Source of the DNA: an uncultured Hungatella sp.
GTDB taxonomy: Bacteria > Bacillota > Clostridia > Lachnospirales > Lachnospiraceae
Reading direction: 5' to 3'
Assembly (NCBI GenBank): GCA_947066955.1
Contig: CAMTAF010000020.1
Coordinates: 1 to 41,626, forward strand
DNA: 41,626 bases
Made by a program: the position numbers and the translations under genes. This document shows, piece after piece, positions 16,215 through 32,991 of this stretch. The notes below the pieces were generated by a model, which was not told where the DNA came from, ran no database searches, and saw only the letters and a program-made list of their open reading frames with translations. Position 1 is the first letter of the stretch. The number at the start of each line of letters is the position of its first letter.

Positions 16215-19157
16215 ATGTCTTCTGTAATCGCCGGGATTTACGAGATCCAGGATCAGATCGGCGCCGGAGGCGGCGGAATTGTATATATGGGACGTCATAT
16301 GCGTCTGGATAAAAAGATCGTTCTCAAAGCGGATAAGAGAAAACTGGGGACAAAGCCGGAGGTTCTTAGGCGGGAAGTAGACATGCTCAAGGATTTGAGC
16401 CACACCTATATTCCGCAGGTCTATGACTTTGTCCAGGAAGACGGCGTAGTTTATACAGTCATGGATTTTATTGACGGTGAGAGTCTGGACCGGATTTTAA
16501 AACGGGGGGAAGTGCCCTCGCAGCCCCAGGTCATCCACTGGGCCTGTCAGATTCTGGAGGCTTTGGTCTATCTCCACGGACAGCCGCCTTACGGAATTCT
16601 CCACGGAGATATAAAACCTGCCAACATCATGCTTAAGCCCAACGGGGATATCTGTCTCATCGACTACAACATCGCTCTTGCCCTTGGAGAAAACGGAGCT
16701 GTCAAGACAGGATTCAGCCGGGGCTACGCTTCCCCGGAGCATTACGGCATCGAGTACGCGGACAAGGGCAGGCGAATTTCCACCGCAACAAAGAACCTGA
16801 CCAATACAAAGGATGATGTGACCGAGGTGGCCGGAGGCGATGATGTGACCGAGAGCGCAGACAGCTTGTCTCAGGCTTCCTCCGGAAAAAACACAGGGGT
16901 TACAGGAAATACGGGAAGCACAGGAAGTACGGGAAGTGGCGGAGGCGTTCTTCTGGATGTCCGCTCCGATATCTATAGCCTGGGAGCCACCCTGTACCAC
17001 CTGGTGTCAGGGAAACGTCCTGCCCAGGATGCCCTTCAGGTAGAGCCTCTGGGACCGGAAGTCTGCAGCCCCCAGGTTTCCCAGATTCTCCAGAAGGCCA
17101 TGGCTTCCAATCCGGATATGCGTTATCAGACAGCGGCCCAGATGCTGACAGCTTTTCGGGATCTCCACAAAAACGACAACCGTGTCCGGAGACGCAAGAA
17201 ACGGGAAGCCATATGGACAGCTGCGCTGTCTGTCCTGTTCTTGTGCGGCGGGGCCAGCACATTTGTGGGTATGAAGCGGATGGAACAGACACAGGAGGCA
17301 TTGACTCTCGCAGAGTACTCTGCCAACAGTCTGGCTGACGGGGACGTGTCCACAGCCATCAGCCAGGCTCTCAAAGCCATCCCCACAAGAGAATCCATCT
17401 TGGAAGCGCCCCCCACGGCTCAGGCTCAGAAAGCCCTCACCGACGCGCTGGGAGTCTATGACCTGTCCGACGGCTTTAAATCCCTGGACAGCCTGGTGAT
17501 TCCGTCAGCGCCTTTTACCGCCTGTCTTTCTCCTGACGGTTCCAAGGCGGCGGCTGTATACCAGTGGGAGGTGGCCGTCTTTGACACCGGGACAGGAGCG
17601 AAGCTGGCATCGCTGCCCTCTTTGAACTCAGCCCTGTCTGACGCGGTGTTCGCGGACAATTCCAGATTGGTCTACGCGGGAGATCAGGGGGTCACGGCCT
17701 ATGATCTGGATAAACAGGCGGTTCTGTGGACCGGGGAGGAGGCGACCACCCTGTCTCTGTCCGCCGACAAGACTACTGTGGCCGCCGTAAACCGGGACGC
17801 GGACTACGGGGTCATTTACCAGATGGAAGACGGGAAGGAAAAAGTTCGCTGTTCCTTTGAGGGACACCACATGGAAGTGGCTGCTAACGATATTTTCGCC
17901 AATCCGGGAAACCGAATTTTCGCTCTGAATGGAGACGGAACCCTGCTGGCAGTGAGTTTCTACGAGGGAGAGCTGTTGATTTTTGATTTGACAAATCCTG
18001 ACAACAACTTGATCGTCTACGAGGAAAGTGAGTATCAAGACTTCGGAGGGGGATTCTCAGGAGACTATTTCGCCTTTGTGGCTAATAAAAGCGATGAATC
18101 TACATTTGGACTCGTCGACGCCAAGGAGGGAGCTTACGTAGGGGCTATGGACTCCAGAGACAAGTTTCTCATAGAAGCCGGGGAAGAGGGAATTTTCCTG
18201 GCCAGCCAGAATGTGCTGGTCCGTTTTGATCCGGATACTCTGGAGGAGACGGAGCTGGCATTTACCAACGACAAGAACATTATCGGCTTCTCTGTGGGGG
18301 ATTCCCATGTCATAGTGGCCACAGACGACAACGGTTTTTCCTTTTTTGATCAGGCTGCAAACCTGATGTCCTCGGAGATTTGCCAGGAGCCCTGTGATTT
18401 TACGGATATAGCCGGAGAGTACGGGCTTACCGCTAACCGCAGCGAGCCCTCTGTCCGTCTTATGAAGCTGGAAAGCCACAGTGACGCGGAAATCATGTCC
18501 TATGATCCACGGTATCTTCACGACGAGGCCAGAATCAGCCAGGATCAGAAGACGGTCATGCTTTTTGACTATAAAGGCTTCTCCATCTATGACAGAGAGG
18601 GAAATAATCTGGTCCAGACGGAACTCCCGGATCCGGAGACCGTCTATGACCAGCAGTTTAGAAAAGAAGAGGACTGTTCTTTTCTGGAAGTAATCTGGTA
18701 TGACGGCACTGTCCGCCGCTACAGCGCTTCCGATGGCTCTCTGTTGTCAGAGACAGAAGGGGAGCCGCCTGAAAAAGACCTGTATGAAGAATTTTTTACA
18801 AAGTACTACAAGATCGGGTCTCCTCTCCATGGAACCCCTGAGGTCTATGACTTAAAGACAGGGAAAAAAGTCGCGGAGCTGGAGAAAGACTCTTATCTCA
18901 CCTATGTAACCCAGCTGGGAGACTATGTTGTCACCGAGTACATCAGCGCCGCAGGACAGAGGTACGGACTTCTGTTAAATGAGCGGCTGGAGACTCTGGC
19001 TTACCTCCCGGATCTCTGCGACATCGCGGGAGATCAGCTGGTATTTGACTATGGAAGCGGGAATCTGCGGCAATGCCGCTTGTATTCCCTCCAGGAGCTA
19101 ATATCTCTTGGAGAGACATATCTACAAAAAGACGAAGGGAGAGATGAAACGAAATGA
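16215..19157 (+). CDS. transmembrane Ser/Thr protein kinase with propeller-like ectodomain
   Basis: A 980-aa Hanks-type kinase behind a GGGGGGG ribosome site. The kinase domain is at about 8-305: gly loop IGAGGGGIVY, Lys38 in VLK, catalytic loop HGDIKPANIM (D132, with HGD in place of HRD), metal-binding IDYN (D150, in place of DFG), SPE in place of APE, and DIYSLG. An insertion of about 64 Ser/Thr/Gly-rich residues (183-246) separates SPE from DIYSLG. One membrane helix is at about 331-352. The outer ~600 residues contain repeated beta-strand units (FTACLSPDGSKAAAVYQWEV), typical of WD40/PQQ-like propellers. The last residue's stop overlaps the next gene's ATG. The core residues support an active kinase. 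Confidence 0.93.
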   Translation: MSSVIAGIYEIQDQIGAGGGGIVYMGRHMRLDKKIVLKADKRKLGTKPEVLRREVDMLKDLSHTYIPQVYDFVQEDGVVYTVMDFIDGESLDRILKRGEVPSQPQVIHWACQILEALVYLHGQPPYGILHGDIKPANIMLKPNGDICLIDYNIALALGENGAVKTGFSRGYASPEHYGIEYADKGRRISTATKNLTNTKDDVTEVAGGDDVTESADSLSQASSGKNTGVTGNTGSTGSTGSGGGVLLDVRSDIYSLGATLYHLVSGKRPAQDALQVEPLGPEVCSPQVSQILQKAMASNPDMRYQTAAQMLTAFRDLHKNDNRVRRRKKREAIWTAALSVLFLCGGASTFVGMKRMEQTQEALTLAEYSANSLADGDVSTAISQALKAIPTRESILEAPPTAQAQKALTDALGVYDLSDGFKSLDSLVIPSAPFTACLSPDGSKAAAVYQWEVAVFDTGTGAKLASLPSLNSALSDAVFADNSRLVYAGDQGVTAYDLDKQAVLWTGEEATTLSLSADKTTVAAVNRDADYGVIYQMEDGKEKVRCSFEGHHMEVAANDIFANPGNRIFALNGDGTLLAVSFYEGELLIFDLTNPDNNLIVYEESEYQDFGGGFSGDYFAFVANKSDESTFGLVDAKEGAYVGAMDSRDKFLIEAGEEGIFLASQNVLVRFDPDTLEETELAFTNDKNIIGFSVGDSHVIVATDDNGFSFFDQAANLMSSEICQEPCDFTDIAGEYGLTANRSEPSVRLMKLESHSDAEIMSYDPRYLHDEARISQDQKTVMLFDYKGFSIYDREGNNLVQTELPDPETVYDQQFRKEEDCSFLEVIWYDGTVRRYSASDGSLLSETEGEPPEKDLYEEFFTKYYKIGSPLHGTPEVYDLKTGKKVAELEKDSYLTYVTQLGDYVVTEYISAAGQRYGLLLNERLETLAYLPDLCDIAGDQLVFDYGSGNLRQCRLYSLQELISLGETYLQKDEGRDETK
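19067..19079 (+). other. GCGGC-N3-GCCGC stem near the kinase 3' end (copy 1)
   Basis: A perfect 5-bp stem with an AAT loop inside the kinase coding sequence (residues LRQCRL). The same stem recurs at 23328-23340 (loop AAA) and 28183-28195 (loop AGT). In every case exactly 75 bases separate its last base from a downstream ATG. It marks the repeated kinase-tail/secreted-gene junction. Confidence 0.7.
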
Positions 19158-22100
19158 AATTCATCAAACGGGGAACAGCAGTATTTCTGGCAGCGCTGCT
19201 TACAGTACCAACTCAGCCAGTTACAACGGCCTACGCCAAGCCTGTTGGCGCTATGGAAGGGCAGAAGTCCCTGGAGGGAGATTTCTGGGAGCTTGATCCA
19301 GAAGAAGAATTTTCCTCGGTAGTCAATCTTTACACAGGGACAGCCAGCAATTCTGAAAGATCCTCAAAAGATGAAGTAAAGTTCAACACAGGAAACTATG
19401 TGGTCAGCGTAGTTGACCAGGAAACCTTCGATGGAGGAGAGGGAGACGCGTTCTTTGAGGAGGATGGGAGCTACACCATCAACATCCCTGAGATCAACCC
19501 ATATTTCCCCTACGAAGTACAGTTTACCGGCAGTGAAGGCACTGCCAGCAGATGGTTTGAGACCCCCGGCGACTGTGTGGAGGTGGATGGCCACAGATTC
19601 TATGTGTCCGCCTATTTTGACGGCCAGGCTGTGACCCAGATGAGCCTTGACGTGGCCGGAAAGACGGTTGTGGTGTACCCGGAAAAGAAAGAGTTCACTG
19701 ACGGCGACGGCGCGCAGTCAGCGTCCCTTTTGCCGCTGACTGAAAAGCGGCTGGAGCTGGATCTCACCGGCTTTACTCCTGTGGAGCTGTCTATGGTAAA
19801 AATCAGTTCTATTTTTACAGGAGAAGACCAGCTGAAGGCTACCGACAAGGTGATCTGGGCTTACAATAACGGGAAAGACAAATACACTGTCAGCGCCCAG
19901 GAAGATTTTATCGACCTCAGCTACCGCTCTGGTTACTGGCAGATGATCGTGGGCGATGATGATCAGCTGGCAGCGGAGAATATCCGGTATATCATTGATG
20001 TCACCGCCACTGACTCTGAGGAGTGGCTGATTCCTGCAGCTTATAAGCAGGACAGCGAGGGAAAACGGACAAAAGTTGATACCGTGACAGGTGATTATTA
20101 TTCCTATATTGATGGAAACAGACTGTATATCAGAGTACCGGTCAAAGAAGTAAGCCGTGAGGAGTTGGATATGACTTATGTGGGGCTGGAGATGAATACC
20201 GCCCTTTTCCCCAACTCGAAAATAGATCATTTCAAGGTCTATGAGGGTCGGTTTCCTGATCCGGCAAAGGCACAGGCAGAAGGGGCCGATATCACAGACC
20301 AGCTGTTTGCTACAGATATGACAGCGGCAGGGGCTGGAGTTCTGTATCCCAGAGATCTGTGGGTTACAATGGCCGCTTACGATGAAGCGGGAAATGTAAT
20401 CGGATGGCTCCCGTTTGAACTGGATTTGTACCGATCCTCGAACTATGTTTCATGCTACAGCTTATATAAAAAAGATGATAGTGGAAATACGATTTATGTT
20501 AGCTCTTCATCCTCTACCAAAACCATAGATGGGTGCGAGACCACTACCATCAGGCTGAAATATGGCTATCCCGCTGACGGAAAATATTATCCGGACTTCG
20601 ACTACAGCACGATGGGTGAGAGTCATAATGAACTGGTGACAGCCGCCTATGCAGGGACCTTCTCCTCCATTCAGGAAGCCGCGGAGGCGGGAGCGAAAGA
20701 TCTGAAAGCAGTTCTGTTCTTGGACAGTCCCTACTCGGCCGGAGAAATTTATGAAGCTGATTTCAGTCAAGGCGTATATTTTACATTCTTTGTGGGGGAG
20801 GACGGCGCACAGGAGCAGGAAGTCCATCACCTCTGTGTTAAAACCGAGGAAGGACAGCCGGAAGACCCGGTTTTCAGTGACAGCACTACTGTATACTTTA
20901 ACGGACTTTATGACAGTGACGGACATTACGTCAGATGTCTCTCCGTAGACCGTGATGAGGATTCCTATGGCGATTATTCCTACCGGACGATTCTGGTAGA
21001 CAGCGATGTGGATTTGACTTGTCTGGCGCCAACATTCAGTGTCTCAGAGGGAATTAATCTGTATGCCTCAGAGGGAAATTCAGAATCGGTTATACAGGTC
21101 AGCGGAAAAAGTGTCCACGATTTTTCGAAAGGCCCTGTCCAATACACGGCTTCCTCGGAGAGTAAGGAGTTCCAGAAAAATTACTGGCTTCAGGTAGTGC
21201 AAAAGACCGAGGGACCAGGTAAGCTCTACATAAACAGCCTGGCTGATCCTGGCGCCAAGACTGAGACAGACAGCAATGGAGTAGTCACATCTACCAGAGA
21301 GATGATCATCGACGGGCGTTATGACTATTATCATGACATTGTGCTGATTAACCAGAACACAGGCGAACTGGCCAATTTAAAGGCCGAAATTGACTCGGCG
21401 GAAGTGGAGCTGGATCCCTACTGGACTTTAAACGGAGACTATTCTCTGTCTGGTTTTGATAAGATCAGCAGGCAAGACGCCGACGGAAACTATGTCAGCT
21501 ACGGAGAACTGGCCAATATGGCTAAACTGCGGGTAGTTCCAAAAGAAAACATGGCTGACGGAAGAGAAATTTCCGGTACAATTACCATCAAATCCGGAGA
21601 ACAAGTTTTGATGGTGCTGACTCTCACCGGTACTGTAGGTGACCCCAGCATCACTACCACAGAGGTCCCGGAGGCTGTTAAATATGTTCCGTACGGAACT
21701 ATGATCCAGAACAGCAACAAATATGAGTGGAATGAGGTAAGCTATGAGCTTCTAGAGGGGACACTTCCGGCAGGCATGGTAATCAAGCCCAACGGGGAAC
21801 TGTACGGTGTTCCCACAGAAATAGGGGAGTTTACCTTTACCGTGCGAATGGAAAACAGCTTTGAGAAGTTTGCCGACAGTGTAAAAACCCTGACCTTGAC
21901 GGTTGTGGACAACACCAATGAAAATGTCGAGTCTGCTACAGACCAGGGATATGAGCTGACCAGCCGGATCCAGAATGTGGCTCTGACTTCAGATAAAGAC
22001 CAAGTGATGGTTTCAGAAGGTGTGTTCGGCCAGTTTGTGGATCTGTACTTAGACGGCGTGAAGCTGAAAAAAGATGAGGATTACACCGCAGAATCCGGGA

Positions 22101-23089
22101 GCACCAAAATCACAGTAAAGAGTCAGACATTGAAGAGCTCCAACTCAACAGGAACCCACACTCTTGGAGCCGAGTTCAGGGATGAGGACGACAACTTGAA
22201 GAGAGCTGCCCAGAACTATGAGCTCACAGAGGATGAGACGAAGCCGGGCGGAGATAAGCCAGGTGAAGACAATCCGGGTGGCGATAACCCAGGGGGAAAT
22301 AATCCAGGCGGAGACAACCCGGGTGGGAGCAATCCAGGTGGCGATAACTCAGGTGGCAATAACCCAGGCGGAAATAATCCGGGCGGTGGTATCGGCGGTG
22401 GAAGCGGCAGCACAGGCGGCGGAAACCAGGGCGGCAGCGGAAGTATTAGTGGAGGCGGCAGCAGTGGTGGAAGCAGCGGCGGAAGTGGTTCGTCCACAAC
22501 GACAGCGGTCAACGAGGCAGCAAGAAAAGGTCAAGTAGACCCAGAGAGAGGAATTATCACCGGAGAGGGCTCAGGTAATTGCCATTGGCAGCAGAGCGGC
22601 GCTGGCTGGCAGCTGATCTACACAGATGGAACCGCGGCGAAAGGCACTATGATCCAGCAGGAAAACGGAGAGACCGTTGAACAGGTACTCTGGGAGATGG
22701 TCAACGGTTCTTGGTACGCCTTCGGCGCTGACGGTTATGTGAAATCCGGCTGGGTTTATGATTATCAGTTAAACAGCTGGTATCTGACATCTGCCGATAC
22801 AGGCATGATGAGCGGATGGTACAAGGATTCCCAGGATCAGAATACTTATTACATGGATCCTGTGACAGGAAAACTGGCAGCTGGATGGAAAGAGATTGAC
22901 GGAAAGTGGTACTATTTCCAGGCTGTGTCCACAGCTCCTACATGGGAGTACAACAAGGAGACGGGAAATTGGTCCTATAATCTGAAGAGTGACGCGAAAC
23001 CATTTGGTTCCATGTATCTCAATGAGAGAACTCCTGATGGGTATTTCGTGAATATACAGGGGATTTGGGATGGGAAGAATCCACAGTAG
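19154..23089 (+). CDS. large secreted cell-wall-binding protein, paralog 1
   Basis: A 1311-aa protein whose ATG overlaps the kinase stop (ATGA), so it is probably translationally coupled to the kinase. The signal peptide MKFIKRGTAVFLAALLTVPT ends near TTAYA (residue 28). The large middle region is beta-rich; one ~135-aa module (about 430-565: YGYPADGKYYPDF ... DFSQGVYFTFFVGED) is present once. A putative Ig-like domain follows (VPYGTMIQNSN ... GTLPAGMVIKPNGELYGVPT, about 835-915), then a Gly-Asn-Pro linker, then aromatic wall-binding repeats over the last ~170 residues (NGSWYAFGADGYVKSGWVYD). It may be a partner or ligand of the kinase ectodomain, or a Tad-associated adhesin. I cannot assign the central domains. 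Confidence 0.85.
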   Translation: MKFIKRGTAVFLAALLTVPTQPVTTAYAKPVGAMEGQKSLEGDFWELDPEEEFSSVVNLYTGTASNSERSSKDEVKFNTGNYVVSVVDQETFDGGEGDAFFEEDGSYTINIPEINPYFPYEVQFTGSEGTASRWFETPGDCVEVDGHRFYVSAYFDGQAVTQMSLDVAGKTVVVYPEKKEFTDGDGAQSASLLPLTEKRLELDLTGFTPVELSMVKISSIFTGEDQLKATDKVIWAYNNGKDKYTVSAQEDFIDLSYRSGYWQMIVGDDDQLAAENIRYIIDVTATDSEEWLIPAAYKQDSEGKRTKVDTVTGDYYSYIDGNRLYIRVPVKEVSREELDMTYVGLEMNTALFPNSKIDHFKVYEGRFPDPAKAQAEGADITDQLFATDMTAAGAGVLYPRDLWVTMAAYDEAGNVIGWLPFELDLYRSSNYVSCYSLYKKDDSGNTIYVSSSSSTKTIDGCETTTIRLKYGYPADGKYYPDFDYSTMGESHNELVTAAYAGTFSSIQEAAEAGAKDLKAVLFLDSPYSAGEIYEADFSQGVYFTFFVGEDGAQEQEVHHLCVKTEEGQPEDPVFSDSTTVYFNGLYDSDGHYVRCLSVDRDEDSYGDYSYRTILVDSDVDLTCLAPTFSVSEGINLYASEGNSESVIQVSGKSVHDFSKGPVQYTASSESKEFQKNYWLQVVQKTEGPGKLYINSLADPGAKTETDSNGVVTSTREMIIDGRYDYYHDIVLINQNTGELANLKAEIDSAEVELDPYWTLNGDYSLSGFDKISRQDADGNYVSYGELANMAKLRVVPKENMADGREISGTITIKSGEQVLMVLTLTGTVGDPSITTTEVPEAVKYVPYGTMIQNSNKYEWNEVSYELLEGTLPAGMVIKPNGELYGVPTEIGEFTFTVRMENSFEKFADSVKTLTLTVVDNTNENVESATDQGYELTSRIQNVALTSDKDQVMVSEGVFGQFVDLYLDGVKLKKDEDYTAESGSTKITVKSQTLKSSNSTGTHTLGAEFRDEDDNLKRAAQNYELTEDETKPGGDKPGEDNPGGDNPGGNNPGGDNPGGSNPGGDNSGGNNPGGNNPGGGIGGGSGSTGGGNQGGSGSISGGGSSGGSSGGSGSSTTTAVNEAARKGQVDPERGIITGEGSGNCHWQQSGAGWQLIYTDGTAAKGTMIQQENGETVEQVLWEMVNGSWYAFGADGYVKSGWVYDYQLNSWYLTSADTGMMSGWYKDSQDQNTYYMDPVTGKLAAGWKEIDGKWYYFQAVSTAPTWEYNKETGNWSYNLKSDAKPFGSMYLNERTPDGYFVNIQGIWDGKNPQ
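22246..22395 (+). repeat. NPGG/DNPGG coding repeat linker
   Basis: About ten consecutive five-residue units of the type (G)xNPGG, read as GDNPGGNNPGGDNPGG and similar, encoded by near-identical 15-bp units. It separates the Ig-like part from the wall-binding repeats. The second paralog has a shorter version (about four units, 27384-27440), consistent with replication slippage. The long minus-strand ORF here is a shadow of this repeat. Confidence 0.88.
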
Positions 23090-23114
23090 TAAACTTTTAT
23101 AATGATAAACGGGG

Positions 23115-23142
23115 AAGAGCCAGATAATTTGATCTGGCTCTT
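23115..23142 (+). terminator. hairpin after paralog 1 (repeated after paralog 2)
   Basis: AAGAGCCAGAT (23115-23125) pairs perfectly with ATCTGGCTCTT (23132-23142) across a 6-nt loop, 26 bp after the stop codon. The identical stem follows paralog 2 at 28110-28138. There is no real U-tract, so termination may be partial, allowing readthrough into paralog 2. Confidence 0.6.
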
Positions 23143-23157
23143 GATCACCTCATCAAC

Positions 23158-23418
23158 CTTACCTATGTAACTCAGTCAGGGGAATATATCGTAACCGAGT
23201 ATGTCAGCGCGGATAGAGAAAGGTATGACTTTCTCCTTAACAGCCGGTTGGAGACCCTGACTTATCTCCCTGACCTCTGTGATATCTCAGAGGATCAGCT
23301 GGTATTCGACTATGGAAGCGGGAATCTGCGGCAAAGCCGCTTGTATTCCATCCAGGAGCTTACAGCTCTTGGAGAGACATATCTAGAAAAAGAAGAAGGG
23401 AGAGATGACACGAGATGA
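23158..23418 (+). pseudogene. duplicated 3' end of the kinase gene (86 codons)
   Basis: Translation in one frame gives LTYVTQSGEYIVTEYVSADR ... ending DDTR and a stop. It matches the last 86 residues of the kinase (from residue 895) with no gap and about 65 identical positions by hand alignment. It has no start codon or kinase domain. Its stop overlaps the ATG of paralog 2 (ATGA), exactly as the true kinase stop overlaps paralog 1. It is the relic of a tandem duplication of the kinase-tail plus secreted-protein unit. It fills the otherwise empty 325-bp gap. Confidence 0.93.
23328..23340 (+). other. GCGGC-N3-GCCGC stem (copy 2)
   Basis: Same stem as 19067-19079, with an AAA loop, inside the duplicated kinase tail. 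The downstream ATG of paralog 2 (23415) is again exactly 75 bases beyond its last base. Confidence 0.7.
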
Positions 23419-26400
23419 GATTCATCAAACGAGGAACAGCAGTCCTTCTGGCGGCGCTGCTTACAGTTCCAACCCAGCCAGTCACAACGGCCTACGCCTG
23501 GTCAACAGGGGGAACAGAGGGCCAAAATTTGGAGGGAGGGTTCTGGGATGCGGATCCTGACAACAGGTTTTCTACTGTGACAAACCTTTACACAGGAACC
23601 GCCAGCAATTCGGAAAGATCCTCAAAAGATGAAGTAAAGTTCAACACAGGAAATGGTCAGGTCAGCGTAGTTGACCGGGAAACTTTTGACCAAGGAGAGG
23701 GTGATGCTTTTTTTGAGGAAGACGGGAGCTATACCATCAATATACCGGAGAGCAATCCGTTCTTCCCCTATGAAGTGCAGTTTACCGGCAGTGAAGGCAC
23801 TGCCAGCAAGTGGTTTATGACTCCTGATGATAGTGTGGAGGTAGATGGGCATACGTTCTATGTGTCTGCTTACTTTGACGGTGAGGTTGTAACCCAGATG
23901 AGCCTTGACGTGGCGGGGAAGACTGTGGTGGTGTATCCAGAGGCGAAAAAGTTTGTTGATGAGGATTGGGCGGAAGTGGAGTCGCTTTTGCCGTTGACTG
24001 AAAAGCGGATGAAAGCGGATTTCACCGGATTTACCTCTATGGAGCCTGACACGGTGGACACTGAAGGAGATGAGGTGCGGAAAGATTCGCTTTTGCCGCT
24101 GACTGAAAAAAGACTGACTGCGAATTTGACTGGATTCACACCAGTAGAACTGACCATGGTGGAACTTAAAGAAGTTTTTGCTGGAGAAGAATCATTGAAA
24201 CCAGAAGATAAGATCATCTGGACTTATGGGACTGGAAATGATAATTATACGGTCAACGCTCAGGAAGATACCATAGACTTTAGCTACAGAACTGGATCAT
24301 GGCAAATGATTGTAGGGGATGATGATCAGCTGGCTTCGCAAAATATTCGCTATATTGTTAATACACAGACAGCTGATGCGCAAAAATGGCTGACAACAAC
24401 TGTTTACAGTGAAGACAGTGAAGGGAACCGAAGCCCGCTTGTTCCTACAAGAGGAAATTATTATTCATATACTGACGGAAATCGACTGAATATCTCAATA
24501 CCAGTGAAGGACAACGGGACTACAGAACTAATCTATGTAGGACTGGGAATGAATACCGCTATCTTTGAAAATCCAAGATATGACCATTTTAAAGTATATA
24601 GTGGTGAATATAATGATCCCATAAAAGCCGAAACAGAAGGAACTGATATTACAGAACAGGTATTTCCCTCTGATATGACCGTATCTGGGGCAGGAATCCA
24701 TTATCCAGAAGACTTTTGGGTAACGATGATAAGCTATGACAAATCCGGTAAAGTTACGGGGTGTCTTCCGTTCCAGTTAGATATGCGATTGATCCAAAAT
24801 GAGATATCTATTGTATTATATGAGGAAGATAGCCGTGGAAACCAAAACAGCGTAAGCAGTACTATCTATCAATCTGAAAATGACAATGATTATACAGATT
24901 ATACAGTAACTTTGAGAAATGGATATGCTGCCGATGAAAAATATTTTCTGAAACTCAGTTACACACGGTTGGGCATTGAAAATAATGACATGGTAACAGC
25001 TGTTTATACAGGACTATATTCGTCTATAGCGGAAGCAATAGAGGCAGGGACCGATCCTATTCTGCTAGAAAAAGGGTACGAATCTGATTATAGTCAAGGT
25101 GTATATTTTACGGTTTTTGTAGGTGATGACGGTTCAAACAACCAGGAGATCTATAAATTCTGTGTTAAGACCATGGCAGTTCAGAATACTCTGTCTTGTT
25201 CTGGATTATATGAGGTAGACGAATATGGCACATGGCATGTAGACAGTTCAATTTATGCAGAAAATAAGGAAAACTGCGAATATTATACGATAAAACTGGA
25301 AGGTGGATATCCCGCAGACAAAAATTATTTTCTGACATTTAGCTATTATAGGTTTGGCATTGAAAACAATGAATTGGTTACAGCCGCATATATAGGTTCA
25401 TATTCATCTATAAAAGAAGCCACTGAAAGTGGAGCAGAAGATCAGAAGGATACGCTGCTATTAGGAAAAGGATATGAGGCTGATTATAGTCAAGGTGTAT
25501 ATTTCACAGTCTTTGTAGGAGATGACGATTCTGAAAATCAAGAGATATATAAATGCTGCGTTAAGACCGAGGCAGTTTCAAATTCCTTATATTGTTATGG
25601 GTTATTTGCAACAGACATTAATGGGGACATCATAATAGATGAAATAAGCAATTCTGTTTCTACTCGGATTGAGAATGGCTGCACGATGCGCACAGTAACA
25701 TTGAAATATGACTACCCAGTTGATAGTAAATATTATGCGATTTTCAAATATTGTGAGATGGGGTATGTAAGTAATGCGTTAGTAACAGCTGCATATGCAG
25801 GACAATATTCTTCTATAAAAGAAGCAGAGGAGGCGGAGGCAGAAAAGCTTAAATATGATGATAATTGGGATTCGGATACTTGGGATACTTGGATTTACGA
25901 AGCTGATTACAGCCAAGGTGTATACTTTACATTCTTTGTAGGTGAAGATGGTTCGGAAAAGCAAGAAATCTATAAGTATTATATCATAACTAAAAAGCCG
26001 AAAGATCCCGTTCTCAGTGATAGTACCAGTATAGATTTTATAGGTCTTCGAGATGAGAAAGGAGAAGCTGTCAACTGCTATATAGTCGACTCTTATGAAG
26101 ACTCTTATAGCGATCACTGTTATCGGACAATCCTTGTTGACAATGACGTAGATCTGACACGTCTAGCACCTGAGTTTTCGATTGATGTGGCTGGAATCAA
26201 CCTGTATGCTTCCGAAGGAAATTCTGAACCAGTCCGTCAGGTCAGCGGAAAGAGTATTCATGATTTTTCCAAAGGTCCGGTTCAGTACACAACATCTTCT
26301 GAAAGTAAAGATTCTCAAGCAAACTACTGGCTTCAGGTAGTACAAAAAACAGAAGGCCCGGGACAGCTTTACATAAACAGTCTGGCAGATGCGGATTCGG

Positions 26401-28100
26401 AGACTACGATTGATGACACTGGTATGGTAACTTCTACCCGTGAGATGCTTATTGATGGACGCTATGACTACTGTCATGATATTTTGCTCATAAACAAAGG
26501 CACAGAAGACCTGACTAACCTAAAAGCTGAGATTGACTCAGACGAAGTTGAACTGGATGCCTATTGGACCTTGAACGGCAATTATCCGCTGTCTGGTTTT
26601 GATAAAATCACCAGGGAAGACGCTAGTGGTAAGTATGTCAGCTATGGCGAACTTGCGAATATGGCCAAACTTCGTATAGTGCCAAAAGAAAACATGGCAG
26701 ATGGACGAGAGATCTCAGGTACTCTGACGATCAAGTCCGATGATAGAGTATTGGCTGTTCTAAATTTAACAGGTACTGTCGGTGACCCCAGTATTACCAC
26801 CACAGAAATACCAGAAGCGGTTAAATATGTTCCATACGGTACCATGATTCAGAACAGCAATAAGTATGATTGGAACAAAGTAAGCTATGATCTGTTAGAT
26901 GGAACTCTTCCCGCAGGCGTAGTGATGAAGCCCAACGGAGAATTGTATGGCGTTCCGACAGAGATAGGAGAGTTTTCTTTTACTGTGGTTATGGAAAACA
27001 GTTATGAAAAATTCGCTGATAGTCAAAAAACGCTGACATTGACCGTTGTGGACAACACAAATGATAATGTCGATGCCGCTACAGACCAAGGATATGAACT
27101 GACCAGACGGGTAAATAACGTGGCCCTTACTTCTTCCACGGATCAGGTGATGGTTTCAGAGGGTGTGTTCAGCCAATTCGTTGACTTGTATCTGGATGGT
27201 AAGAAGCTGACGAGAGACGAAGATTATACCGCAGAATCCGGAAGTACCAGACTCACCATAAAAAGCGAGACTTTAAAGAGTTCCGATACCACAGGAACCC
27301 ATACCTTGGGAATCGAGTTCCGAGATGAGGACGACAATTTAAAGAGAGCTGCCCAGAACTATGAGGTTACCGAGGAAGAGACTAATCCTGGAGGGAATAA
27401 CCCAGGCGGTAACAACCCCGGAGGAAATAATCCAGGCGGCAGCATTAGTAGCGGTATCGGCGGAGGAAGTAACAACGGAAACAGCAACAACAAAAGCAGT
27501 TCATCCACGACTACCGCAGTCAATGAGGCGGCCAGAAAAGGCCAAGTAGATCCAGAGAAAGGCATTATCACTGGTGAAGGATCCGGCAATTGCCACTGGC
27601 AGCAGACCGATGGCGGGTGGCAGCTGATCTACACCGACGGGACTGCCGCAAAAGGTTCTACAACCCAACAGACAAATGGAGATGCGGTAGAACAGGTACT
27701 CTGGGAGATGGTCAATGGATCCTGGTATGCTTTTGGAGTTGACGGATACGTGAAATCCGGCTGGGTCTATGATTATCAGTTAAACAGCTGGTACCTCACC
27801 TCTGTTGAGACAGGAATGTTAAGCGGATGGTATACCGATCCGCAGGACAAACAAACCTATTATATAGATCCGGTGACAGGGAAACTGGCAACAGGCTGGA
27901 GAGAGATTGATGGAAACTGGTATTATTTCCAGGCTGAATCCATAGCGCCTACTTGGGAACTGGACAAAGAGACAAGGAATTGGTCGTACAATGTAAACAG
28001 TAACGCTAAGCCATTCGGCTCCATGTATTTTAATGAGAGAACACCGGATCGATATTTTGTAAATATCCAGGGGATTTGGGATGGACGGAATCCGCAATAG
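23415..28100 (+). CDS. large secreted cell-wall-binding protein, paralog 2
   Basis: A 1561-aa tandem paralog of 19154-23089. The signal peptide (MRFIKRGTAVLLAALLTVPT) is nearly identical and the N-terminus and C-terminal third align along their length. Two differences stand out. A segment LLPLTEKR ... FTGFT is duplicated (near residues 193 and 230). The central module ending in YSQGVYFT(V/F)FVGDD occurs three times (24802-25995) where paralog 1 has one. The Ig-like domain (VPYGTMIQNSN, GELYGVPTEIG), a shorter NPGG linker and the wall-binding repeats are kept. The central modules are visibly richer in A and T than the flanks. No catalytic signature is visible. Confidence 0.85.
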   Translation: MRFIKRGTAVLLAALLTVPTQPVTTAYAWSTGGTEGQNLEGGFWDADPDNRFSTVTNLYTGTASNSERSSKDEVKFNTGNGQVSVVDRETFDQGEGDAFFEEDGSYTINIPESNPFFPYEVQFTGSEGTASKWFMTPDDSVEVDGHTFYVSAYFDGEVVTQMSLDVAGKTVVVYPEAKKFVDEDWAEVESLLPLTEKRMKADFTGFTSMEPDTVDTEGDEVRKDSLLPLTEKRLTANLTGFTPVELTMVELKEVFAGEESLKPEDKIIWTYGTGNDNYTVNAQEDTIDFSYRTGSWQMIVGDDDQLASQNIRYIVNTQTADAQKWLTTTVYSEDSEGNRSPLVPTRGNYYSYTDGNRLNISIPVKDNGTTELIYVGLGMNTAIFENPRYDHFKVYSGEYNDPIKAETEGTDITEQVFPSDMTVSGAGIHYPEDFWVTMISYDKSGKVTGCLPFQLDMRLIQNEISIVLYEEDSRGNQNSVSSTIYQSENDNDYTDYTVTLRNGYAADEKYFLKLSYTRLGIENNDMVTAVYTGLYSSIAEAIEAGTDPILLEKGYESDYSQGVYFTVFVGDDGSNNQEIYKFCVKTMAVQNTLSCSGLYEVDEYGTWHVDSSIYAENKENCEYYTIKLEGGYPADKNYFLTFSYYRFGIENNELVTAAYIGSYSSIKEATESGAEDQKDTLLLGKGYEADYSQGVYFTVFVGDDDSENQEIYKCCVKTEAVSNSLYCYGLFATDINGDIIIDEISNSVSTRIENGCTMRTVTLKYDYPVDSKYYAIFKYCEMGYVSNALVTAAYAGQYSSIKEAEEAEAEKLKYDDNWDSDTWDTWIYEADYSQGVYFTFFVGEDGSEKQEIYKYYIITKKPKDPVLSDSTSIDFIGLRDEKGEAVNCYIVDSYEDSYSDHCYRTILVDNDVDLTRLAPEFSIDVAGINLYASEGNSEPVRQVSGKSIHDFSKGPVQYTTSSESKDSQANYWLQVVQKTEGPGQLYINSLADADSETTIDDTGMVTSTREMLIDGRYDYCHDILLINKGTEDLTNLKAEIDSDEVELDAYWTLNGNYPLSGFDKITREDASGKYVSYGELANMAKLRIVPKENMADGREISGTLTIKSDDRVLAVLNLTGTVGDPSITTTEIPEAVKYVPYGTMIQNSNKYDWNKVSYDLLDGTLPAGVVMKPNGELYGVPTEIGEFSFTVVMENSYEKFADSQKTLTLTVVDNTNDNVDAATDQGYELTRRVNNVALTSSTDQVMVSEGVFSQFVDLYLDGKKLTRDEDYTAESGSTRLTIKSETLKSSDTTGTHTLGIEFRDEDDNLKRAAQNYEVTEEETNPGGNNPGGNNPGGNNPGGSISSGIGGGSNNGNSNNKSSSSTTTAVNEAARKGQVDPEKGIITGEGSGNCHWQQTDGGWQLIYTDGTAAKGSTTQQTNGDAVEQVLWEMVNGSWYAFGVDGYVKSGWVYDYQLNSWYLTSVETGMLSGWYTDPQDKQTYYIDPVTGKLATGWREIDGNWYYFQAESIAPTWELDKETRNWSYNVNSNAKPFGSMYFNERTPDRYFVNIQGIWDGRNPQ
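24802..25995 (+). repeat. three tandem ~130-aa modules in paralog 2
   Basis: Modules at about 24802-25175, 25190-25578 and 25582-25995 share the order: aromatic start (LYEEDS / LYEVDE / LFATDI), a (G/D)Y-A/P-ADxKY block, a (V/L)VTAAYxGxYSSIxEA block, and DYSQGVYFT. Paralog 1 has a single copy (about 20446-20850). The copies are diverged, so expansion is not very recent. Confidence 0.85.
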
Positions 28101-28109
28101 TTAGAACGG

Positions 28110-28138
28110 AAGAGCCAGATAGGATTCATCTGGCTCTT
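28110..28138 (+). terminator. hairpin after paralog 2
   Basis: AAGAGCCAGAT (28110-28120) pairs with ATCTGGCTCTT (28128-28138) around a 7-nt loop, followed by TCTCTCATT, a weak pyrimidine tract. It has the same stem as 23115-23142, so it was duplicated together with the coding unit. Confidence 0.6.
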
Positions 28139-28162
28139 CTCTCATTAATCGTTATGTGCGGG

Positions 28163-28335
28163 TATTATGAATTCGGGAATTTGCGGCAGTGCCGCTTATA
28201 GGGTTCCTCTAAAGATTTGTGATTTCAGGGAGAATCTATAAAAGTAAAATAGAGGAAGGAGGGGGTAAGATGGTGTATATTAAAAGAAAAGCGTCAGTAT
28301 GCTTGCCGCAGTTCCTGCCTGATGGATATGGCTAG
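28163..28335 (+). pseudogene. third relic of the kinase-tail/secreted-gene unit, ending in a 21-codon ORF
   Basis: Bases 28163-28209 align without gaps to the kinase 3' region (YEFGNLRQCRL against DYGSGNLRQCRL), and then a stop has arisen. The downstream spacer keeps its length, and the ATG at 28270, behind GGAAGGAGGGGG, is exactly 75 bases beyond the GCGGC stem, as in the two live copies. That ATG opens MVYIKRKASVCLPQFLP, which aligns with the paralogs' signal peptides (MKFIKRGTAVFLAALLT), then stops after 21 codons. It may be only a relic, or a leader peptide for the LRR gene 25 bp downstream. Confidence 0.8.
28183..28195 (+). other. GCGGC-N3-GCCGC stem (copy 3)
   Basis: The same stem, with an AGT loop, in the dead third unit. 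The stem bases are unchanged although neighbouring sequence has mutated. Confidence 0.65.
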
Positions 28336-28359: not shown

Positions 28360-31300
28360 ATGGGAATTTGGAAACGAAGGGTTGCACAGGTGTTGACTTT
28401 AGCTCTTGTAGTCTCGTCTTTAGCGCCGTCTGGGATGACCGTGTCCGCTTCCGTCATAGAAGGGAATATGGGAGGACAGGAAAGGGCTGAGAGATTGCAG
28501 GAAGAGCAGATTGCTTCAGGATCAGATGCCAGCGAAGACCTAGGTAAAAGGGAGTTGCCGGGAGAGGATATTGGGGGCGACGGTGTCGGGAAGAGCCAGA
28601 ATGACGAGGAGGTGGAAATACGGGAAGGAACGGAACAGATTTCTGAGATTGAGAAAAGTGCGGAGGCTTCCGGGACTTGTGGGGAGAATCTGACATGGAG
28701 TTTAGTTGATGGAGTTTTGACTATCAGTGGGACGGGGGAGATGGCATCATATGATGACCCGCAAAACTATGGGGCCACGCTAGTTCCTTGGAATGAGAGC
28801 AAAGCTGAAATTATAGAAATTATAGTAGAAAATGGGGTAACTTCGATTGGAGGTTATGCGTTTGGGGGTTGTGGTGGCTTAACGAGTATAACTATCCCAG
28901 AAGGCGTGACTACGATTGGATCTTCTGCGTTTCATGGTTGTAGTGGCTTAACTGATGTATATTACAAAGGAAGTGAAAGTGGTTGGTCTGCCATTTCAAT
29001 AGGGGAATCAAATGAACCTCTTACTAATGCCACAATTCACTATAATAGTACAGGGCCCAATCTGGATGGTTTATCCGGAACCTGCGGTAAAAACTTGACC
29101 TGGATCCTGATAGACGGCATCTTGACCATCAGCGGAACCGGCGATATGGCTTCCTATGAAGTTACAAGTGATTTATCTTTAATGCCACCTTGGAATGATC
29201 GAAGTCAAGAGATTAAAGAGATCAGAATCCTGAGCGGTGTAACTAGCATCGGGAACGTAGCGTTTATAAACTGCAACAATGTGGAAAGTGTATCCATCGC
29301 TGATACGGTAACTACCATTGGCAATAACGCATTTGCGGGATGCAGCAGCCTTCCTAATATAACGATTCCAAATAGTGTGACAATTATTGAGAATGCTGCT
29401 TTCAGTGGATGCGATTTACTAAACAATGTAACGATTCCCGACAGTGTGACAACCATTGGTTCCTATGCGTTTTCTTATTGTTCTGGTTTGGCCAGCATAA
29501 CTCTCCCGAACAGCTTAACCCAATTAGGAGAGTTCACGTTCTGGGATAGCGGCCTGAAAGATATCACGATCCCTGGCAGCTTAGCGAGCACTGGGAATTA
29601 CACCTTTAAAGATTGTACGCAATTGACCAATGTGGCCATTTCCGACGGTATAACCTCCATAGGTGAATCCGCATTCTCCAATTGCTCAGCTTTGACAAAT
29701 ATAACGATTCCAGGAAGTGTAACCGCTATCGGAGAGTTCGCATTTTTTCAGTGTACCAGTCTTGCCAGTATAAATATTCCTTATGGCGTGACCACCATCG
29801 GTTCCTCAACCTTTGGAGAGTGTACAGGCCTGATAAATGTGACCATTCCTGACAGTGTAACTACCATTGGGTTGGGGGCCTTTGGATACTGTATCAATCT
29901 GGAAGACGTGACAATCCCTGGAAGCGTGACCACTATGGAGAACAGCGTATTCAGTGGATGCAGCAAGCTGACCTATATGGCGATCCCAGACAGCGTAACT
30001 TCTCTGGGCGACTATTTCTTTAATGAGTGTGTTCAGCTAAGTAGCGTGACCATTCCCAAAAGCATAACTTCTATCGGAGCGGAAGCTTTTGACGGCTGTA
30101 CAGCTTTGGCCGATGTTTACTATGGAGGAAATGAAAATGACTGGGGCAATATTTTAAGGGGCGAGAAAAACGAGCCTCTTGACAGCGCAACGATCCACTA
30201 TAACAGCACAGGGCCGGATCCGTCAAAGGTTACAATCAACCTCAGTAACCTGGGTGATGCTGTTTTGTATGTACCCTATTCAGGTACCCTCAAACTGAAT
30301 GGTTCCATAAACGCATATAGCCCGTTATTCCGCATTGCAAACGGAACTCTGCCCCAGGGACTTGAGCTAAATTCTGAGACAGGGGAAATCTACGGAGTTC
30401 CCCGGGAGAGCGGAAACTTTGAGATTACGGTGGAAGTGGTTTTGCGGGGAGCGGAAGACATTACTCATCAGGCAAATTTGACCATTACCATAAAAGAGAA
30501 CACAGATGATAATATCTATGAATCCTGCGATGAGGGATATGAACTTGAACAATACATCGGTGAGAAGACAGACCATGGTTATGTGCTGAAAGAATACAGC
30601 GACCAGCTGCTCGTATCCGCCGGAAAGTTCGAACAGTTTGTAGCTCTCTGGCTCAACGGCGAAAAACTTGTTGAAGGAGAAGACTACACAGCAGAGAGCG
30701 GAAGCACCAGGATCACGGTCCGGAAGCAGACCTTTGAGAACAAGACCAAACCTGGTTCCAACACTCTTTCCGCGGAATTCCGCAATGAGGATGGTGATTT
30801 AAAGCGCACCTCTCAAAACTTCACCATCGAGGAAGACAAGCCCGATGATAAGCCAAACACAGATAATAAACCTGGCACAGACACCAAACCGGGAACCGGC
30901 GGAACTGGGAGCATCGGCGGTGGTGGAACTGGTGGTTCTGGATCAGGCAGCAGCTCTAGCTCAGGCAGCAGTGGCAGCGGCTCCGGATCAAGTGGCAGTT
31001 CCAGCTCCGGCAGCGGTTCCAAGTCCTCTTCCTCAGGAGGCAGAGCTCTTCCCTACACCAACGACTCCTGGGTAAAAGACGACATTGGCTGGAGATGCAA
31101 AAAGCCTGACAACACCTGGCTGACCAATGGCTGGTATCTGCTTCCCTACAACGGAACAACCGGCTGGTACTATTTCAATCAGGAAGGCTACATGGCAACC
31201 GGCTGGATCATGGATCAAGGGAGATGGTATTATCTCAATCCTGTATCCGACGGAACCCAGGGAATCATGCTTGCGGGCTGGAGGCTGATCAATGAGAAGT

Positions 31301-31404
31301 GGTATTATCTCAACGAGCAGGCTGACGGAACCCAAGGCGCCCTGATGGTGAATACCCAGATCGGAGAATACCGTGTAGACGAAAACGGAGTCTGGGTAGA
31401 GTAA
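28360..31404 (+). CDS. secreted BspA-type leucine-rich-repeat protein with wall-binding C-terminus
   Basis: A 1014-aa protein behind AGGAGG with signal peptide MGIWKRRVAQVLTLALVVSS. Residues ~100-630 hold BspA/TpLRR (LRR_5) repeats of about 23 residues, such as LTNITIPGSVTAIGEFAFFQ, and two longer units that begin SGTCG and end ATIHYNSTGP. These surface repeats commonly mediate host or matrix binding. The part after ~630 is homologous to the end of the two preceding paralogs: GTLPQGLELNSETGEIYGVP, then EDYTAESGSTRITV, a Ser/Gly-rich linker and aromatic wall-binding repeats (NGWYLLPYNGTTGWYYFNQE). It lies directly after the dead third unit, so it probably replaced or took over that copy. Confidence 0.88.
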   Translation: MGIWKRRVAQVLTLALVVSSLAPSGMTVSASVIEGNMGGQERAERLQEEQIASGSDASEDLGKRELPGEDIGGDGVGKSQNDEEVEIREGTEQISEIEKSAEASGTCGENLTWSLVDGVLTISGTGEMASYDDPQNYGATLVPWNESKAEIIEIIVENGVTSIGGYAFGGCGGLTSITIPEGVTTIGSSAFHGCSGLTDVYYKGSESGWSAISIGESNEPLTNATIHYNSTGPNLDGLSGTCGKNLTWILIDGILTISGTGDMASYEVTSDLSLMPPWNDRSQEIKEIRILSGVTSIGNVAFINCNNVESVSIADTVTTIGNNAFAGCSSLPNITIPNSVTIIENAAFSGCDLLNNVTIPDSVTTIGSYAFSYCSGLASITLPNSLTQLGEFTFWDSGLKDITIPGSLASTGNYTFKDCTQLTNVAISDGITSIGESAFSNCSALTNITIPGSVTAIGEFAFFQCTSLASINIPYGVTTIGSSTFGECTGLINVTIPDSVTTIGLGAFGYCINLEDVTIPGSVTTMENSVFSGCSKLTYMAIPDSVTSLGDYFFNECVQLSSVTIPKSITSIGAEAFDGCTALADVYYGGNENDWGNILRGEKNEPLDSATIHYNSTGPDPSKVTINLSNLGDAVLYVPYSGTLKLNGSINAYSPLFRIANGTLPQGLELNSETGEIYGVPRESGNFEITVEVVLRGAEDITHQANLTITIKENTDDNIYESCDEGYELEQYIGEKTDHGYVLKEYSDQLLVSAGKFEQFVALWLNGEKLVEGEDYTAESGSTRITVRKQTFENKTKPGSNTLSAEFRNEDGDLKRTSQNFTIEEDKPDDKPNTDNKPGTDTKPGTGGTGSIGGGGTGGSGSGSSSSSGSSGSGSGSSGSSSSGSGSKSSSSGGRALPYTNDSWVKDDIGWRCKKPDNTWLTNGWYLLPYNGTTGWYYFNQEGYMATGWIMDQGRWYYLNPVSDGTQGIMLAGWRLINEKWYYLNEQADGTQGALMVNTQIGEYRVDENGVWVE

Positions 31405-32221: not shown

Positions 32222-32275
32222 AAGAATACCTCCCCAAATTTCAATTTTGTCTGGTTCTATTGTACGAAACTCTTT
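32209..32275. repeat. 67-bp near-perfect repeat, copy 1 (GNAT start and promoter)
   Basis: This segment covers the first codons of the GNAT gene, its ribosome site and -10 region. It recurs at 36461-36526 with only two substitutions and one missing base. In copy 1 the bases immediately beyond (32276 on) are tnpC sequence. Confidence 0.93.
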
Positions 32276-32991
32276 ATTCGGCCGATTGTGAAATTCCTCA
32301 GTGCCCGTTCGCTGGCCGAGTTATCAATTGAAACCTCGCCATCTTCTAAAAATACCTTCAGGTATTTCTCCTGGTTCAGGCTGTAGGCCAGTCCTTTTGC
32401 CGTTTCTCCTTTGGGAAGGACTGTCTTATCTGCAAGGATTTTTCTGACCCACTCAAAATACTCTTCAGCCAATGGCCGGATGGTCGACTGTCGTTTACAC
32501 AGGCGTTCTTCCGCTGACAGGCCTTTTAACCCGCTTTCCAGATCATAGATTGCGCCGATCCTCACAAGAGCCTCATATGCTATGGATGATTTGACCGCCT
32601 GGGGGTTCCCTTTCCCCAGCGCTTTTATCGCGTTGGCGAAATGCCGTCTCGCGTGCGCCATACAGTTCGCGTTTGTCACCCCCTCTGCTTCCCTTGCCAG
32701 CTTATGGTACTGTTCCAATCCGTCTGTCATAAGGATTCCTTTAAAGTCCTTATAGTACGCCTTCGGATGGTCTCTGTGTCTCGTTTTCTGGTATTCATAC
32801 ACAACGATCTTTGGAACCGGGCTGAGTTCTCCAGTAAGATGGACCCACATGAAACTCTTGCTTCCCGCCGGACGGTCATCATGGATCACTTCCCGCCGGA
32901 TCTGCTCGATTAGGTTTTCGTAATCGTGTTCGAGCTGATCCAGCCGGTCCTGCATCTGGTAAATGACATCATTCTTAGACGCGTGATCCAT
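32257..32991 (-). pseudogene. IS66 transposase tnpC, internally deleted and 3' truncated
   Basis: A 244-aa remnant of an approximately 500-aa IS66 DDE transposase. The N-terminus (QMQDRLDQLEHDYENLIEQI) is the normal coiled-coil start. It jumps directly to VIHDDRPAGSKSFMWVHLTG, where full-length proteins have a zinc-binding region and the HADET catalytic motif, so the first catalytic Asp is lost. TDGLEQYHKL (second Asp) and DNSASERALRNFTIGR (third acidic residue) remain. The frame ends at SFVQ because it runs into the GNAT promoter. It cannot be an active transposase. Confidence 0.85.

Follow-up and report, generated by a model that had tools for sequence, protein, structure and literature searches.

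A short, nearly palindromic sequence element precedes genes for large secreted proteins in a 41,626-nt stretch of DNA (the window) from an uncultured Hungatella sp. of the Lachnospiraceae (assembly GCA_947066955.1, contig CAMTAF010000020.1). Its first copy lies within the last ~40 codons of a gene for a Ser/Thr protein kinase, ahead of the secreted-protein gene S1; its second lies in a relic of the kinase tail, ahead of the S1 paralogue S2; and a third follows S2. Comparison of these copies and their relatives suggests that the element is very probably constrained at the nucleotide level and belongs to the secreted-protein gene (S). The explanation that we favour, with moderate confidence, is that the element could be a cis-acting RNA leader of S, formed by two hairpins and embedded in the 3′ end of the upstream kinase open reading frame (ORF). 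In the sequence, this reading is supported by the position of the element 56–160 nt (mostly 63–86) before S, its conservation, its predicted fold, its linkage to S and the existence of stand-alone copies.

Position and conservation of the element

The stem GCGGCNNNGCCGC, of the pattern GCGGC-N3-GCCGC, has exactly three occurrences in the window, with stem ends at 19079, 23340 and 28195, where a mean of 0.02 is expected and none of 100 shuffles reached three; an ATG stands 75 bases past each stem end (19154, 23415 and 28270). Both observations had been made in an earlier, sequence-only reading of this DNA, which also called the spacing invariant. That term holds for the three window copies but not for relatives: by another measure of the element-to-S distance, window copies 1 and 2 have 77, and 19 other loci have 56–160, 16 of these 19 being within 63–86. 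In the spacing and linkage analyses, the first possible start codon of the ORF was taken as the S start. Copy 1 (19041..19112, plus strand) is inside the kinase ORF and has a fold z of −2.68, and copy 2 (23302..23373, plus strand) is within the kinase-tail relic and has a fold z of −2.24. Copy 3 (28162..28231, plus strand) is outside recognisable kinase sequence and scored 47.9 bits with nhmmer and 43.3 bits with a covariance model, both models having been built with copy 3 included; its fold z is −0.55.

Over a stretch that begins immediately 5′ of the stem and runs to the S start, copies 1 and 2 differ at 9 of 105 sites; in the adjoining kinase part on its 5′ side, they differ at 42 of 152 (p 1.2e-4). 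Counting third codon positions only, the differences are 3 of 35 in the element part and 26 of 50 in the kinase part. This contrast, together with conservation across species, contradicts the earlier view of the relics as mere decay. A neutral relic, that is, a decaying duplicate without function, is in our judgement very improbable: copy 3 is mostly eroded, copy 2 lacks a convincing start codon, and gene conversion could explain part of the similarity between copies 1 and 2, but across deeply diverged species the element is where conservation is highest, and conservation is also seen in copies that are not part of a kinase. Gene conversion could have contributed because the start of S, encoding the signal peptide, is also fairly similar between the copies (24 of 114 differences, misaligned end included, p 0.013), while it is unlikely to be the reason for conservation across deeply diverged species.

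The conservation across species was followed in two comparisons. In the first, the kinases of eight relatives, selected independently of the element, were each compared with the window kinase, and a 14-codon block had identical codons at 13 of 13 (G022), 12 of 14 (G005) and 9 of 13 (G013) shared amino acids, against 46–48% gene-wide. No peak was found in G009 (4 of 11), whose kinase has no S after it, or in G041 (5 of 11), and three distant kinases, with few shared residues in the block (4 of 5, 4 of 6 and 3 of 7), also had none. In the second, among 19 element-bearing kinases with a mean amino-acid identity of 57%, which were picked by element score with L100 excluded as incomplete, the tail had the highest synonymous conservation of all 857 windows (0.776, mean 0.441, sd 0.078), the best window outside the tail reaching 0.614; the same tail position was ordinary (0.37–0.46) in 26 kinases without the element, which we chose from the rest.

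The 24-mer CGGGAATNTGCGGCANNGCCGCTT, with up to three mismatches allowed, is present in its own 4.2 Mb assembly (completeness 92%) only at the three window sites, each with 0 mismatches. A search of that genome for a regulon returned only these three copies as strong matches, along with two weak ones on the minus strand (E 0.37 and 0.61), which overlap copies 1 and 2. The exact pattern occurs in 4 of 26 genomes of the genus, and one further match with 3 mismatches, in G009, is regarded as chance. Among 397 genomes of the family, 15 have a match at E ≤ 0.01, seven of them strong (E < 1e-7) and eight weak (1e-3 to 1e-2), the latter probably being chance; congeners of three of the family matches have a match in 4 of 11, 1 of 9 and 1 of 1 genomes. 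The covariance models of Rfam 15 gave no match at E ≤ 5 in six loci of ~3 kb and none at the gathering score in the window, and the element was not found in print within the literature searched.

Predicted fold, linkage to S and competing readings

In a 24-sequence alignment (A5), the element is predicted to form two adjacent hairpins, the first with an outer stem GGGAAU/AUUCCC and an inner stem GCGGC/GCCGC, and the second with the stem UCCAGG/CUUGGA. In copy 1, these correspond to GGGAAT (19059–19064), GCGGC (19067–19071), AAT, GCCGC (19075–19079) and ATTCCC (19084–19089) for hairpin 1 and to TCCAGG (19090–19095) and CTTGGA (19107–19112) for hairpin 2. A codon-preserving fold test, in which all 55 kinases of at least 480 codons were compared with synonymous recodings using each gene's own codon usage, gave a mean z of −3.37 (−1.66 to −5.5) for 20 element kinases and −0.74 for the 35 others (p 2.5e-8); four short kinases (the window relic, L093, L082 and L135) were left out. 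All 20 element kinases had z below −1.6, and in the weakest, L073 and L078, 16 and 11 of 200 recodings folded equally well. Stand-alone copies had fold z values of −2.0 (G010), −3.6 (L093) and −1.2 (G009). Hairpin 2 has double changes in four cells of the alignment, twice from A-U to C-G, once from C-G to U-A and once from G-C to A-U; 2 of 500 shuffles reach this count. We consider it likely that the element acts as RNA.

The tails of four more distant kinases (L046, L131, L127 and L128) have another stem at the corresponding position, such as GCGGG AAT CCCGC in L046, and fold well (z −2.2 to −4.5) without the sequence element.

The element is also linked to S. In the element-bearing part of the kinase tree (32 kinases, a group read off the tree by eye and including L078, which the tree places beside the element-free group), it is present in 16 of 17 kinases with S within 25 nt versus 4 of 15 without (p 1.3e-4), and over all 55 kinases the corresponding counts are 16 of 27 versus 4 of 28 (p 7e-4). 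For two kinases, L083 of G009 (about 5 kb examined) and L184 of G174 (9 kb examined), no S was found downstream; both have lost the sequence as well as the fold of the element, with fold z values of +0.83 and +0.59. Most loci in this collection were retrieved via their S gene.

Stand-alone elements, outside kinase sequence and before S, occur in G009, G010 and L093. The L093 copy matches the consensus at 37 of 41 positions, and those of G009 and G010 share 46 nt that are identical to each other. The latter two sit downstream of a common promoter-like site, TTTACT-17-TATACT; promoter-like scans list one site in each, against 0.8 and 1.2 expected by chance, and the stretch between this site and the element is not identical in the two. 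A conserved inverted repeat, AGAAAGTGATATACTTTCT, which resembles a repressor operator, overlaps the same site (L042:6062–6080 and L044:8265–8283). Directly ahead of the (A/G)GGAAT arm, all four stand-alone copies have AATTC (28170–28174 in copy 3, L093:404–408, and the same place in L042 and L044), as do none of the 20 kinase-derived copies in A5, which may reflect shared ancestry or a functional difference.

In G009 and G010, the loop lacks one base relative to the kinase copies, so that the kinase frame and the +1 frame are both displaced beyond it. Because the sequence past the loop is still kept, peptide coding explains the conservation poorly. A leader peptide overlapping in the +1 frame is accordingly rated as highly improbable, even though all 21 element copies examined have that frame open and contain a possible start codon in it, and an NSGI-like reading is common to the stand-alone copies. 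Besides the frame shift, its ORF would be anywhere between 18 and 1317 codons long, the codon in the loop is free to vary (N, K, S, R or I), and the L093 stand-alone copy has, as judged by eye, no ATG, GTG or TTG in the +1 frame.

The near-palindromic sequence might also be read as DNA, namely as the site of a transcription factor acting on an internal S promoter. The core GCGGCA(N)TGCCGC is a good dyad, perfect over 12 bp in G009 and G010, and the element is near-invariant in sequence. Nevertheless, the outer arms are spaced asymmetrically, with C on one side and TTGT on the other, which fits an RNA stem with an internal loop better; a consensus scan lists no plus-strand sigma-70-like site in 18897–19154 or 23143–23415; and the promoter-like site of G009 and G010 is upstream, so that the element would be transcribed, an argument that rests on that site being shared. 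We therefore hold an operator to be unlikely.

Conditional termination would likewise involve hairpin 1, which, with a U-rich tail, could govern read-through into S. In copies 1 and 2, a terminator scan picks up the stem with TTGTATT, and the two adjacent hairpins could compete with each other, but termination at this position would cut the kinase mRNA ahead of its own stop codon, the U-tract is poor, and the scan gives 11 sites where 7.8 are expected, which leaves attenuation a doubtful reading, less probable still than an operator.

Several observations weigh against a two-hairpin leader of S. As for the fold, some element-free kinases also fold well (L128 −4.5, L127 −2.8 and L118 −2.3), the coupled ones among the 35 element-free kinases fold no better significantly (p 0.21), A5 shows no double change in hairpin 1, covariation being confined to hairpin 2, and pairing partners slid by −1 or +1 yield as many double-change cells (four) as the real pairing. 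As for the linkage, the species compared are related rather than independent, and the tree contains branches with poor support; exceptions exist in L137 (S at +2, of the leucine-rich repeat (LRR) type, 41 bits) and L082 (S overlapping the kinase stop, 20 bits), the latter kinase being too short for the test; L070, L124, L096 and L187 retain the element with S at 31–100 nt; and, by nhmmer, 21 of 71 S loci score at least 50 bits and 50 score below, some for want of upstream sequence. In L093, the kinase's own copy is only partly eroded (31 of 41). The start of S in G009 and G010 is as conserved as the element, and in G013 the block does not stand out alone, since 14 of 923 windows are equally good. 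Finally, the near-invariance of the sequence exceeds what a plain stabiliser would need and hints at a specific binding partner.

According to the two-hairpin leader reading, the element would be included in the transcribed S leader and could determine how much S mRNA there is, or how long it lasts, independently of the kinase. By analogy, the most likely way would be a 5′ stabilising or processing hairpin as in Bacillus subtilis cggR-gapA, although we put forward this particular role only tentatively. The probabilities that we attach to the element, RNA and stabiliser readings overlap with those of their rivals, termination being itself an RNA reading. According to a study of cggR-gapA (PMC11780869), RNase Y cleaves inside cggR and a downstream hairpin mainly stabilises the downstream cleavage product. 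The present arrangement is similar in placing a hairpin, here predicted only, at the 3′ end of an upstream ORF and right before the downstream gene, but it differs in that two hairpins are predicted, the sequence is near-invariant, and the element also occurs in stand-alone copies and has been duplicated along with S. In the cip-cel operon of Ruminiclostridium cellulolyticum (PMC10311766), on which the proposed role is also modelled, stem-loops set transcript stability and stoichiometry; this too is a clostridial operon for extracellular proteins with stem-loops, whereas the element described here is a conserved sequence lying mostly within an ORF. A stabilising or regulatory leader hairpin is thus of a known kind, and its embedded, sequence-conserved and portable form would appear to be new in the literature searched.

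More speculatively, and with somewhat less confidence than in a stabilising role, the element might represent a portable family of sequence-specific RNA regulators in Lachnospiraceae, which would have arisen within the coding sequence of a kinase, be recognised by a dedicated factor (perhaps under the signalling of that kinase) and have moved out as stand-alone leaders, the kinase copy then eroding. If the leader reading is true, a pseudogene fragment would have been retained because its code conceals a regulatory signal, regulators could be overlooked where annotation leaves gaps of this kind blank, and related species in which the element is embedded, stand-alone or lost would offer a ready test system. 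It might also provide a handle on the dosage of very large surface proteins beside a pilus locus in gut Lachnospiraceae.

Probable duplication of the kinase–S pair and the third copy

The relic (23158..23418, plus strand) comprises 86 codons without a stop, in a frame open from 23128. As previously proposed, copy 2 aligns to copy 1 without gaps across these 86 codons (23158–23415), with 80% identity in DNA and 75.6% in protein. The sequence-only reading had further seen a unit of kinase tail plus secreted gene duplicated at least twice. One duplication is borne out, since S1 and S2 group as sister paralogues in a tree built from 73 S middle segments (those of the window and of 71 loci) and the relic stands ahead of S2, but three secreted units are not supported, copy 3 retaining little beyond the hairpin core.

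Nor does the unit seem to have been the kinase tail and S only. In the part 5′ of the element, 62% of synonymous and 16% of nonsynonymous sites differ between relic and kinase (pS 0.62, pN 0.16, dN/dS 0.13), and the expectation for a neutral pseudogene, dN/dS of ~1 with uniform divergence, is not borne out, divergence falling sharply at the element. In simulations (2000 each, assuming dN/dS of 0.1 before truncation and equal branches), neutrality of the relic throughout or for the last half of its life was rejected (P 0 and 0.0005), whereas neutrality for the last 20% or 10% was compatible with the data (P 0.13 and 0.44). From these sequence comparisons, it is most likely that the relic was a working whole kinase for most of its life and was truncated late; the second kinase having thus been whole until late, the duplication probably involved the whole kinase–S pair. 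An intact second kinase before S2 was seen in no strain among the genomes compared. A single contig of G174 carries two kinases together with two S genes that are sisters, so pairs of this kind can evidently arise. The scenario that we propose is that the whole pair was duplicated, that the second kinase was truncated late, that the end of the relic may have been kept because it carries the S2 leader, and that copy 3 may be a leader that is older or in decay.

A duplicated gene 3′ end around cargo is the classical signature of an attachment site, and the arrangement fits the idea of an integrating element that recombined at the kinase 3′ end and left copies behind. Nevertheless, no recombinase gene lies between the copies, only S1 or S2 filling those stretches; no element match was found in phages, plasmids or viral contigs at the sensitivity used, the viral scan being for the exact pattern; and loss of the element at unlinked S would be left unexplained. 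S also follows 57 of 59 kinase tails, which is weak evidence as most loci were retrieved by their S gene. We regard this as the least probable of the alternatives, with very little in its favour. Attachment-site duplication, a +1-frame peptide, neutral decay and an internal sigma-70 promoter were each set aside on the evidence given for them.

In copy 3, the core of hairpin 1 is retained and hairpin 2 is not evident, indicating partial decay. Its similarity to the other copies had been expected to exceed that of shuffled sequence, and this is so for a 35-bp stretch against copy 1 (28 of 35), which beats 1000 of 1000 shuffles, but not for the sequence past the stem alone, which 423 and 85 of 1000 shuffles equal in comparison with copies 1 and 2 (367 and 49 under another scoring). 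In fixed register, the 74 nt ahead of the ATG are marginal (p 0.0545 and 0.0525), and the 57 nt past it match at 26 positions (p 0.001 and 0 of 2000). The start of the LRR gene downstream, however, matches copy 1 at 27 of 60 positions including the ATG, or 24 of 57 without it; because this is nearly as good as the 26 of 57 of copy 3, homology of copy 3 to S is not established. The spacing of copy 3 does not appear to be produced by alignment gaps, as register 0 was the best of 121 offsets against both other copies and the gaps in the alignment to copy 2 cancel, which lends it weak support. The 21-codon ORF that begins 75 nt after the copy 3 stem (MVYIKRKASVCLPQFLPDGYG*, 28270..28335, plus strand) does exist and resembles a signal peptide, although kinship to the S signal peptides is unsupported, given 26 of 57 versus 24 of 57 for the LRR gene. 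By sequence, copy 3 is thus homologous with certainty over about 35 bp only.

Genes of the locus

In gene order, a Tad/Flp pilus cluster is followed by genes for FHA, PP2C and Ser/Thr kinase proteins and then by S1, S2 and the LRR protein. The cluster contains TadZ-like, T2SSE, T2SSF, Flp1-like (just below the cut-off), TadE and prepilin peptidase genes, and the kinase, like the FHA and PP2C genes before it, lies downstream of them, as at a Tad/Flp pilus locus. Unlike pilus components, the S proteins match no pilus family and are tied to the cluster by neighbourhood only. The kinase (16215..19157, plus strand, 980 aa; Pfam Pkinase 3.7e-33) has a membrane segment recognised by eye and, in its C-terminal half, a weak PQQ/BamB-like match (PQQ_2, 25 bits, under the cut-off of 27.6).

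S1 (19154..23089, plus strand) overlaps the kinase stop by 4 nt, and the start of S2 (23415..28100, plus strand; 73% protein identity to S1) overlaps the relic stop in the same way; both proteins have a signal-peptide-like N-terminus and choline-binding-type repeats at the end. An inverted repeat, AAGAGCCAGAT..ATCTGGCTCTT (23115..23142, plus strand), lies 3′ of S1, and the same repeat recurs 3′ of S2 (28110..28138, plus strand). Both were read from the sequence and are visible in the alignment; the one after S1 is terminator-like but without a good U-tract and is absent from the terminator-scan list. The BspA-type LRR secreted protein (28360..31404, plus strand; Pfam LRR_5 3.2e-105) has a C-terminal part in common with S1 and S2, as seen by alignment. 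A second BspA-type LRR protein with a similar C-terminal part is encoded elsewhere in the genome (G000:C84, locus L057:6463–8931), and no element was found near its gene within the 9.3 kb examined. Shortly past the LRR gene of the window lies a fragment of an IS66-family transposase (32257–32991, minus strand). Within S2, three tandem copies of a ~130-aa module occupy 24898–26003 at a spacing of 384–423 bp, and S1 has one.

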